Shown here: in pieces, positions 59,283 through 64,000 of the stretch | Numbering within the stretch: the first letter of the stretch is position 1 | Layout of the letters: every line of letters begins with the position of its first letter | Origin: Rhododendron vialii | Lineage: Eukaryota > Streptophyta > Magnoliopsida > Ericales > Ericaceae | DNA: 64,000 bases | Direction of reading: 5' to 3' | Assembly: GCF_030253575.1 (NCBI RefSeq) | Contig: NC_080563.1 | Location: 38,357,501 to 38,421,500 of the forward strand | The notes under the pieces: generated by a model | Told to the model about the DNA's origin: nothing | The model's input: the letters and a program-made list of their open reading frames with translations, nothing else | Databases searched by the model: none | Made by a program: the position numbers and the translations under genes

Positions 59283-60900
59283 TGTAACGCCCCGAATTTT
59301 GGAGACGTTAAAAGGATAATTTCATTAAAAATTTAATGGAGTTTGACTCAATATTATAGCATAATTCTCAAAAGAGTACTTTTATTTAACAAAAGGAGGG
59401 GTAAACTAGGGTTCCTATCTACTGCTCTGCCTCTTCTTCCATTCTGACCAGCTCTTCGGCTCCAAAAGCTTCCAAGGTGTAGAGTTCACCCTATTCGTCA
59501 ATAAGATCTGACACATTATACCAGTGTCGTCACCAATATAATATGTCAAGGTCACCAAAAGGTAACACTGTGAGCCACAAAAACTCAATAGAGTAACTCA
59601 TACCCACTATCCCTTAACTTAAAAACAAATGATCACAAATTCAATAATTTCCACATAGCTCATACATATTCGACAAAACAGTTAACAATGACACATCCGC
59701 ATTCACTATTCAACTAACGTTGGTGTCCATGATTTTTTGAGTTTCTTCTACGCGATTTCTCGTAGACCGTGTCACTAGTTTCACCTTTCATTAACTAAAT
59801 CAACATTTTCAAAATCGTCATCTTAACACACCCAACCTCGGTTCTGCCATTCCGGTCTCCCGAGTATCCTCACAATGGTTCCGCCACACTGGATTCCCAT
59901 TGGCACACAAAACTTTGCATTGGCTCCTCTCTGCGGATAACTAAGCTATATTACCAATGAAGCTACCGGCCACGTCTGGCCCCATTGGCAATCTTCACAA
60001 TGGGCTACCAAGTCCGGCCACATTGCGAGTTCTCATTCACACAAAAGGCTACCAAGTCCGGCCACGTTGCGGTTTTCGCAATCCACACGATGGGCTACTA
60101 AGTCCGGACACATCGCGGTTTCCACACACACAATAGACTACCAAGTCCGGCCACATTGCGGTTTCAAACATACATTGCCATTAACACACCCTATGTGTCA
60201 TATTTCTACTTTCTCAGTTTCTGTCTCTCGTTTTCATGCAACGACTCCGCGGTAGGACTTTTCACATATGTAATCATAAATCATTCATTGTAATCTTGAA
60301 ACTAAACTAGCAAGATTATCCAACTCTATATTACTAATCATACTCAAATCACCACTTCAAATATAACGCCACATGTACGGACGTCTTTGGAGTGAAAATC
60401 ACTTATGCTTTACAACAAGACATGTAATGCAAGCAATTCATGTATACATGCTCATAACCATTCTAAAGATCAAAATATGAATACTTCTACCAAACGATAA
60501 AGTCTTATCTTTCAAAAATTGTACTTTCTTCATATGTGGAAAGTTCAAAACAACATATATTTATTAGAGTAAAAGTTGATTATTCCAACATGCTCATATT
60601 TCCATTAGCGAAAACAAATTTGTTAATTATCATGCATTCCAAACCTTATAGGTGAAATATAACCTTATATACTTAAAGAAAATAGTTAGGGATATTCTAC
60701 GTATACTTATAGATAGGGGATAAGGATAATCTACCGTTCTTCTTAGCGGTAGAGCGGCTACGGAAAGGTAAGTCGGCGGTCGAACGAAGTAACTTCTTAC
60801 GGTAAGCTTCCGGTAGTTTCGAAAGAGAAAGGTTTCTTTCGAAACTTGTTTTTGACTAAACTACTTAAACTTTTTGGATCGAAAGGGTAGTCTAGTGGTG
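59283..60900 (-). mobile_element. LTR fragment of a Ty3-gypsy-like retrotransposon, reverse orientation
   Basis: It begins TGTAACGCCCCGAATTTT, which in reverse complement is an LTR 3' end of a type common in plant Ty3-gypsy elements. Inside are about 44 bp tandem repeats (60005-60172) and, to the right, A-rich stretches as in R/U5 regions. The far end was not identified and no matching 5 bp duplication was found, so it looks like a decayed or cut fragment. Family assignment is inference. Confidence 0.45.
60005..60172. repeat. Four tandem repeats of about 44 bp
   Basis: The word CTACCAAGTCCGGCCACATT or a close variant starts at 60005, 60049, 60095 and 60138, followed each time by GCG and a variable A/C-rich spacer. 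A fifth, weaker copy (CTACCGGCCACGTC) lies near 59962. Confidence 0.8.
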
Positions 60901-61504: not shown

Positions 61505-61581
<77 letters not shown>

Positions 61582-61932
61582 GTACTAGGTGTATATATAT
61601 AGATGTATATATCTACATATATGGTTATATATGAGTACACTTAGGTACTAAATAGTCTAGGATGGGAGGTGATGAGTGACAAGGCTTAGGTTGCTTCTTT
61701 TGGAAGCAAAAATATGACTTCTTTTGGTAGTAAAATGATGGCATGAGTTGTCTTGTCAAATATATAAACACATTGGCAAATCTAGCTTCCATTATCCAAG
61801 GAACAAAAATTCCCCTAACATTTATTATCCAATGGGTAAAGGAATAATAATGATGACTAAGGTTAAAATGACTAGACATAGAGTATAATGATGACCTCTT
61901 TAGGTCTAAAAGGTTCAATTAGGGTTGAAGGG
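60901..61932. other. Spacer with long (CT)n tract, no gene seen
   Basis: AT-rich sequence, possibly further LTR-derived. A 73 bp (CT)n run fills 61508-61580. Related phrases TTCTATTACCCAATGAATAA and TTCCATTATCCAAGGAACAA (61070 and 61788) suggest an internal duplication. Confidence 0.4.
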
Positions 61933-62984
61933 TGTTGAAAAATGTATGCATTATAATTTGTGAAAATTTATATGCATCTCTATTAATTATTTTGATGATT
62001 AATTCAATGATATTTTTATTCGGCAAATACAAAATTTTCGAAAAGTCGATTCCCGAATTAAATATTTTCGTGACCTTGAAATATAGCATAAAGTCTCTTG
62101 GATTCATGATTTATATTTACAAAGACTTTATTGAGCTCAATACATGCTTTAACGGTTTATTTAGATGAAATTGTGAGCCACAGGTTGACGAACCGGCTGA
62201 CAAGCCGGCTGTCTGAACAGAAAGCTGTGATAACCGGACGACCACCCGGATGACCACTCTTTCAAACGGCTAGTTTCCAACGGCTAGTTTCAAACGGCTA
62301 GTTTCCAACGGCTAGTTTCAAACGGCTAGTTTCCAACGGCTAGTTCCAACGGCTAGTTTCCAACGGCTAGGAAGCATATGGATGACTATATAAGGCATCA
62401 AGAACTCATTAATGAGTACATACACAAGCTACAACATTCCATATTATTGCAAGAGCAAATTCTCAAAAGATCAAAGCCAAAAATTCTCATTGTTCTTCCA
62501 CTTTCATATTATTCTTGAGAGAAAATTTGTACAAGTCGTGAGCGATAATTTTCATACCTTCTTCACATACTTGTATTTCCTAAGTGAGTGTTTGAGTCAA
62601 ACACTTGAAAGCTTAGAAGACCAAATTCGGGTTGGAATTTGGGTGTTATTGTTTTTGAGAAGTTTTCGGAGAAAATTCTTGCGGTTGTGCTAGCTCCTCG
62701 GGAAAGCTAGAGGCATTCGGTTCTTGTAAGCACCCGCAAGACTTACAAGTTGTAATCTTTTAAAGATTAGTCTAACCTTCAAGTAATTGCTTGAGGAGAA
62801 GTGGAGTAGGGCCGGACCGTGGACAAATCCGGACCGAACCACTATAAACGGGTTCTATCTCTCTATCTCTCTATTTTGATTGCATACTTATTGTTTGCAT
62901 ATATTGTTAGAGATAAATTTTTATTGGTAATTATTACTAGCAATCCTATTCACCCCCCCTCTAGGTTGCATAATTTGGGTAACA
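61933..62984 (+). mobile_element. 5' LTR of a Ty1-copia retrotransposon
   Basis: It starts TGTTGAAAAATGTATGC and ends TTTGGGTAACA, so TGTT and AACA are inverted ends. Two bases after it lies the primer-binding site at 62987. A TATA box (TATATAA, 62387-62393) and an array of AACGGCTA repeats mark U3. The five bases before it (AAGGG) should recur after the 3' LTR, outside the window. Length about 1052 bp. The left boundary rests on the inverted ends and is slightly uncertain. Confidence 0.75.
62262..62369 (+). promoter_or_regulatory. Array of eight AACGGCTA repeats matching the MSA element, in the copia U3
   Basis: Motifs start at 62262, 62276, 62290, 62304, 62318, 62332, 62345 and 62359, every 14 bp (once 13). 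Five read TCCAACGGCTA, an exact fit to the plant mitosis-specific activator consensus YCYAACGGYYA; three read TCAAACGGCTA, off by one base. The array ends 17 bp upstream of the TATA box. All copies have the same orientation. Confidence 0.8.
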
Positions 62985-62986
62985 AT

Positions 62987-62998
62987 TGGTATCAGAGC
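62987..62998 (+). other. Primer-binding site, initiator tRNA-Met type
   Basis: TGGTATCAGAGC is complementary to the 3' end of the plant initiator methionine tRNA. This is the usual minus-strand primer site of Ty1-copia elements and lies two bases after the LTR. Confidence 0.9.
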
Positions 62999-63042: not shown

Positions 63043-64000
63043 ATGGCAACCACTAGTAATGTTTCTTGTATCGAAGGTCAATCATCCAATAGACCTCCCT
63101 TGTTCACCGGAGAAAATTACTCTCATTGGAAAAATAGAATGATGATCTTTATTCAATCCACGGATTATGATCTATGGAAAATTATCAAAAATGGTCCCAT
63201 TATTCCTACTAAGAAAGTTGGAGAAGAGACTTTGCCTAAACCAGATTATGAGTGGAGTCATTTGGAAAAGGCTTCAATAGAAAAGAACTATAGAGCTATG
63301 AACCTTCTTTTTTGTGCTATTACTCCCAATGAATATGATTGTGTTTCCGCATGTGAATCGGCTAAAGAAATATGGGATAAGTTAGAAATGTCACATGAAG
63401 GAGATAGTCAAGTTAAGGAGTCCAAAATTGATATTCTTGTGCATAGCTATGAGCTCTTCAAAATGAAACCGGATGAATCTATATCTCAAATGTTTGCTAG
63501 ATTTGCTAGTATTACTAACGGTTTAAAAGCTCTTGGAAAGATTTACAGTCAATCCGAAATGACAAGGAAGGTGCTCCGTTCCATGCCAACCAATTGGGAC
63601 ACTACCACCTCCATCATCCTACAATCCAAAGATTTCTCAACATACACGATGGACAAGCTCATGGGATCTCTCATGACGGAGGAAATGCATCACAACCTCA
63701 AGGGTGAAAAAGAGAAGAAAGTTAAGGATCTTGCCTTCAAAAGTACAACAAGCAAATCAAAAAGCAAGGAGGATTCAAGCAACGAAAGTGAGGATGATGA
63801 AATGGCGCTCATCACAAAAACGTTCAAGAAACTCCTCAAAAATAGAGCATCTCACAAAGGCAGAGGATTTTCAAGAAAAGATGGAGGCAAAGAAGAAAAT
63901 AGTAAAAAGGATCCAATCATTTGCTACGAGTGCAAGAAGCCCGGCCACATCAAAAGTGAATGTCCATATGCCAAAAAATATTCAAAGAAGGACAAAAGGA
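63043..64000 (+). mobile_element. Ty1-copia gag region, open to the window edge
   Basis: The frame opens at an ATG 58 bp after the LTR end and stays open for 319 codons to the edge of the window. It shows the copia gag fold typical of plants (PPLFTGENYSHWKNRMM near the start, IWDKLEMSHEGDSQVKESKI in the middle), an acidic/basic linker, and a CCHC zinc knuckle at 63922-63963. The long LTR and gag style suggest a SIRE/Maximus-like or related lineage, but reverse transcriptase would be needed to decide. The visible part looks whole, so the insertion is probably young. The remainder lies outside the window. Confidence 0.88.

Follow-up and report, generated by a model that had tools for sequence, protein, structure and literature searches.

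The U3 of a Ty1/copia LTR in the window (the whole stretch of 64,000 nucleotides analysed here) carries a tandem array of MSA-type sites ahead of its TATA box, and an array of this kind is present in each of the 107 LTRs of the family decoded overall (98 plus 9 more), with 2-16 cores per LTR. MSA elements, whose core is AACGG, are binding sites of MYB3R factors. We consider it probable that the array makes the LTR a MYB3R-driven promoter timed to G2/M, its units being reshuffled during or soon after replication.

The array occupies positions 62260..62370 on the forward strand, where Tandem Repeats Finder reports a repeat of period 14 with 8.0 copies and 92% matches. Seven of its eight units are 14 bp long and one is 13 bp. 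All contain AACGG (starts at 62265, 62279, 62293, 62307, 62321, 62335, 62348 and 62362), and five match YCYAACGGYYA exactly (starts at 62276, 62304, 62332, 62345 and 62359). The preliminary description had counted eight repeats of 13-14 bp, five of them sharing one sequence, and both the repeat finder and the motif counts bear this out; the spacer to the TATATAA at 62387..62393 (+), given there as 17 bp, measures 16 bp. From the TATA box, transcription on the same strand would be expected to start at about 62413-62425. The sequence TCCAACGG is present in 5 of the 8 units. Units 1, 3 and 5 read TCAAACGGCTA, which differs from the 11-mer at one base, and with their A preceding AACGG they may be weaker sites; TCAAACGG, of the same A-before-AACGG type, is found in the promoter of a CYCB1-like gene of the host as well. 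Besides the array's five there is no exact YCYAACGGYYA site on either strand of the 64 kb, and dinucleotide shuffles of the window contain a mean of 0.26 and a maximum of 2. A triple-core pattern matches 6 times (overlapping) in the window and in none of 100 shuffles. These shuffles rule out the array as a chance or simple-repeat artefact.

The LTR itself is the 5' LTR of the element, 1052 bp long with TG...CA ends (61933..62984, +). It is preceded by the left copy of an AAGGG target-site duplication (61928..61932) and followed by a primer-binding site, TGGTATCAGAGC (62987..62998, +), which we take to be of the initiator tRNA-Met type. The gag reading frame (63043..64000, +) is open to the window end, which falls inside the element, and encodes a CCHC zinc knuckle and a Retrotran_gag_2 domain (Pfam PF14223, E = 6.3e-30). 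Some 7.25 kb further along the contig, beyond the window, comes the 3' LTR (L069), which is followed by the right copy of AAGGG, so that the 5-bp duplication flanks the insertion. With paired LTRs, a primer-binding site, a target duplication and a copia-type gag, this is a Ty1/copia element, and the earlier placement of the array in the U3 of a copia LTR agrees with all of these features. Other repeats lie nearby: a second, more degenerate CCGG repeat of the CCGGACGACCAC type immediately 5' of the array (62182-62258), seen also in L105, L118, L136 and L137 and longer in a second U3 subfamily; a TC dinucleotide repeated perfectly 36.5 times, some 350 bp 5' of the LTR (61508-61580); and a tandem array in which CTACCAAGTCCGG recurs and whose periods are 43 and 89 bp (59988-60164).

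To find further LTRs of the family we used similarity to the array-containing stretch, or the array itself (one query was the L105 U3 with its first units), together with two partly overlapping samples that were blind to the array. The first consists of the best 40 matches to a 591-bp R-U5 query, 36 of which score as identical, and all 40 LTRs carry arrays. In the 34 newly fetched ones the number of units is 5-13 and that of exact MSA sites 3-9, with 31 of the 34 arrays distinct; in the remaining six the core count is 7-12. The second sample rests on the flank of the TATA box, searched as a pattern with up to 2 mismatches, which gives 438 matches genome-wide (reversed control, 0) and hence a family of about 438 LTRs. 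The 100 matches listed are all exact and lie on C1 to C3; those listed on C1 carry arrays in 26/26 cases, the count per array being 5-16 for cores and 1-11 for exact MSA sites. Since the array-independent samples are positive throughout (40/40 and 26/26), we reject the reading that the array was found merely because it was in the query. The preliminary description had held that relatives with a missing or scrambled array would count against it, and had raised the possibility of copy-number variation; every family LTR decoded has the array, and its size varies over the range given above.

The arrangement of the array is uniform across the family. In all 98 LTRs measured, the distance from array to TATA box is 16 bp (97 TATATAA, 1 CATATAA). 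The cores lie head to tail in one orientation, with no reverse core in 61 arrays. Genome-wide the triple-core pattern has 3364 matches, against 348 for its reversed control. Patterns with exact flanks, which are present in 85 of the 98 decoded LTRs, retrieve two LTRs with two units, which belong to a single element, and three with three or four; no LTR with fewer than two units was retrieved. As a comparison we took 34 loci found by a primer-site pattern alone (30 + 4), in which copia and other LTR types are pooled. Two of them, L045 and L124, are family members and both have the array; the remaining 32 contain at most 3 AACGG/CCGTT cores, both strands counted, in any 150 bp. With a comparable array in 0/32 non-family loci, the array is ruled out as a general feature of LTR elements in this genome. 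A scan of IMG/VR with a two-unit string gave no match. Judged by sequence, with consensus sites and AACGG cores near the start predicted from the TATA box, the array fits the MSA/MYB3R promoter type, and such sites directly 5' of a TATA box are laid out as in a compact G2/M promoter.

The composition of the units was tallied over 828 units from 98 arrays, leaving out each array's first unit and four odd-length pieces. Position 5, which precedes AACGG, is C in 569 units, A in 164, T in 87, G in 6 and a gap in 2; C and T fit the MSA pyrimidine and A and G (170/828) do not. Position 1 is absent in 287 of the 828. The five core positions show five departures in total, and the CTAG after the core three; two additional core changes occur in L165 and L168. 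The units of the second U3 subfamily are for the most part 13 bp long and have TTCC or TTCT ahead of AACGGCTAG, and the two subfamilies, with their different units, both retain AACGGCTAG. We do not claim the conservation of the core as proof of selection on the array, because the copies are young and homogenisation of the units yields the same picture.

The youth of the family is seen in its LTRs and in its gag genes. When 11 LTR pairs were aligned with the array left out, 6 substitutions were counted over 10,340 bases; a substitution rate of 1.3e-8 per site per year would put the age on the order of 20,000 years. Of 1604 first-look gag candidates 125 were scored, and all are 99-100% identical, 3 of them with a stop; older, decayed relatives were not found among these 125. 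The family is therefore young and recently amplified, with at least 125 near-identical gag copies. Three gag copies (C4:3066256, 3086065 and 3105852) lie on one strand at a spacing of about 19.8 kb, which resembles a larger tandem segmental duplication. Of the 100 LTRs listed, 94 can be grouped into 47 pairs whose members share a strand and are separated by 6.6-8.0 kb; the six left over are perhaps solo LTRs, or else LTRs whose partner has an altered flank. The separation is 6.6-7.4 kb in 24 of the pairs and 7.8-8.0 kb in the other 23, and these two size classes suggest an internal indel of about 0.6 kb within the family.

Against this near-identity the arrays change readily. They are unequal between the two LTRs in 4 of the 11 pairs (three by unit number, one by single bases) and, on C1, in 6 of 13 pairs (26 LTRs), five members being shared, wholly or in part, between the two sets of pairs. 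The window element has 8 units in its 5' LTR and 7 in its 3' LTR, and the L005/L078 pair differs by one unit with zero substitutions elsewhere. As both LTRs of an element derive from one cDNA, such changes point to slippage or template switching of the reverse transcriptase, or to change soon after insertion. The shortest arrays belong to a single element (C12:1101676 and 1109498, L147 and L148) with two units per LTR, none of them an exact MSA site. No difference separates the two LTRs over 972 bp and TACAC stands on both sides of the element, which implies that a very short array did not block that insertion.

In the host, a protein search for MYB gave 147 matches, and five loci have a split R2/R3 exon pair, a structure that is like that of MYB3R genes. 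One of them, L172, additionally encodes R1 (90% over 30 residues) and is therefore a three-repeat MYB gene; the best match of its R2R3 piece among structures is the c-Myb DNA-binding domain (1h88, E = 2.7e-44). The single gene retrieved by a degenerate MYB pattern was discounted as a MYB3R and excluded from the count, since its residues look R2R3-type, including NHLRPDIK, which we take to be a marker of that type. A CYCB1-like gene on C13, with a cyclin box 76% identical to the query and the start MASRAAAVPKQPRG, supplied the one host G2/M promoter compared here. Its upstream 561 bp contain seven AACGG cores, six of them inside 140 bp (0/5000 shuffles), among them TCCAACGGTAA, GCTAACGGCTA and TCAAACGGTCT; the exact 11-mer is found at 0 of the seven. 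Two adjoining cyclin-box matches (58%) lie at C7:38466883 and 38471905, about 45 kb past the window end. The preliminary statement put the copies sufficient in a host promoter at one to three, which is too narrow a range, as this promoter has its six clustered cores and Arabidopsis SCL28 is credited with four MSA copies in the available text of PMC8964727.

In the mechanism that we favour, the tandem array, as a set of putative MYB3R sites 16 bp 5' of the TATA box, would act as the U3 enhancer. Activator MYB3Rs would bind it in late G2/M, and the LTR would be transcribed in dividing cells such as meristems and germ-line precursors; repressor MYB3Rs would keep it silent in resting cells. Units would be gained, lost and reordered through slippage or template switching of the reverse transcriptase, or through instability soon after insertion, so that copies vary in site number and retain the core and the TATA spacing. 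Much of the earlier reading of the array stands: motif, position, family-wide presence and copy-number variation hold, and the three-repeat MYB gene and the CYCB1-like AACGG cluster of the host agree with it. Its transcription in dividing cells, advantage in heritable insertion and sequestration of MYB3R are predictions, and in our own account MYB3R binding to the array, G2/M timing, the mode of array variation and the benefit to the element are inferred. Arguing against the mechanism are the 170 of 828 units that depart from the consensus, the two-unit element without an exact site, the three further LTRs with three or four units and the lack of an exact 11-mer among the seven CYCB1-like cores. 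A wider version is possible, if doubtful: a G2/M-locked retrotransposon whose enhancer is repeatedly rewritten, the family forming a swarm of promoter variants selected for their strength in dividing germ-lineage cells and scattering thousands of mitotic sites across the genome of the host.

The core AACGG fits general MYB sites too, which also weighs against the preferred mechanism, and the array could be a real enhancer bound by R2R3-MYB factors of the stress, wound or reproductive kind, answering stress or tissue cues and not mitosis. The host's many MYB genes (the 147 matches) would allow this, and there is precedent in the activation of tobacco Tto1 by NtMYB2 and in the MYB cores of Rider LTRs, both reported in the part of PMC6762207 consulted. 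We nevertheless regard R2R3-MYB control as unlikely: the full MSA 11-mer fits with its flanks, the placement near the TATA box is like that of MYB3R targets, and the clustering of cores is common to the CYCB1-like promoter.

If the array were instead a passive minisatellite, multiplied by slippage in the U3 of a young family and having no role in transcription, one would understand the differences within pairs (4/11 and 6/13), the 31 distinct arrays among 34 and the existence of a two-unit element, and homogenisation by itself can lower core diversity. However, what is repeated matches a known promoter element exactly and stands where a promoter has such elements, the TATA spacing is invariant in 98/98 LTRs, and free slippage predicts more short arrays than the 5 LTRs with four units or fewer that the exact-flank patterns retrieve genome-wide; we judge this explanation improbable. 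Still another role, that the arrays serve chiefly as a sponge for MYB3R factors and not as promoters, could draw on their number, since 438 LTRs with a mean of about 10 cores (C1) give an estimate of roughly 4,400 sites genome-wide, and human LTR12 U3-repeat RNA is reported, in the available part of PMC11853044, to sequester NF-Y and lower cyclin B. Silenced copies are perhaps closed to the factor, and sequestration alone leaves the fixed TATA spacing unexplained, so that this role seems to us very improbable indeed.

Plant LTR switches in the literature surveyed are mostly stress-responsive. If MYB3R control is correct, this element would be tied to a mitotic activator network that is active in meristems, where insertions are heritable, and this would be a possible reason for the recent burst. 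The cell-cycle timing of plant retrotransposon transcription would become directly testable, and the family offers a natural promoter series, in which the cores number 2 to 16 and the TATA spacing is constant, on which to measure MYB3R output against site number, with the two-unit element L147/L148 as a natural short-array control.

Host-factor sites in LTRs (ONSEN, EVADE, Tto1, Rider) and variable U3 arrays (LTR12) are already known from the portions of the papers cited below; an MSA array in an LTR promoter is apparently new, since none of the papers listed in our searches describes one, or an LTR promoter under MYB3R control, as far as titles and abstract starts show. A search with the string AACGGCTAG gave no LTR paper by title among the matches listed, and in the available part of PMC8484011, which contains both terms, MYB3R and retrotransposon, MYB3R appears only in a reference. 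Like the family described here, tobacco Tto1 (NtMYB2) and tomato Rider are plant copia elements with MYB-type promoter sites in their LTRs, but they involve R2R3-MYB factors and stress or ABA cues, and the text available describes no array of this size (PMC6762207). Arabidopsis ONSEN (HSFA2) and EVADE (WRKY) are likewise copia elements whose LTRs carry host transcription-factor sites, and these answer heat or immune cues (PMC12786077, in part). In tomato EPRV, of pararetrovirus type, a MYB3R1 motif is reported within a transposable element near virus-induced genes; unlike the LTR array, it is an intronic case of statistical motif enrichment, with no tandem LTR-promoter array described in the section at hand (PMC8725346).

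The host promoters of G2/M genes, such as SCL28 and the B-type cyclins, resemble the array in that AACGG is repeated near the start, and they are MYB3R-bound (PMC8964727, PMC10905365, PMC9730800, each in part). The SCL28 promoter depends for its activity on AACGG cores close to the start site, and their mutation removes most reporter activity; MSA elements are described as located near the start site (PMC8964727, PMC10905365, excerpts). The tomato factor SlMYB3R3 binds three copies of TCCAACGGT in yeast and is a repressor, and the array could therefore mediate repression also (PMC9730800, in part). As far as the available text of these papers goes, the SCL28 and B-type cyclin promoters have few, dispersed sites in both orientations, whereas the LTR array has its 2-16 cores head to tail in one. 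A likeness in architecture is seen in the U3 of human ERV9/LTR12, where the available text of PMC11853044 describes 5-17 head-to-tail repeats of several subtypes, each with a host-factor site, beside the start. LTR12 belongs to a primate endogenous retrovirus with repeats of about 41 bp and sites for NF-Y, GATA-2 and MZF1, and the present family is a plant copia element with 13-14 bp units and MSA sites. The two are alike by analogy, with no kinship implied, in having variable head-to-tail units of several types in a U3 ahead of the start.
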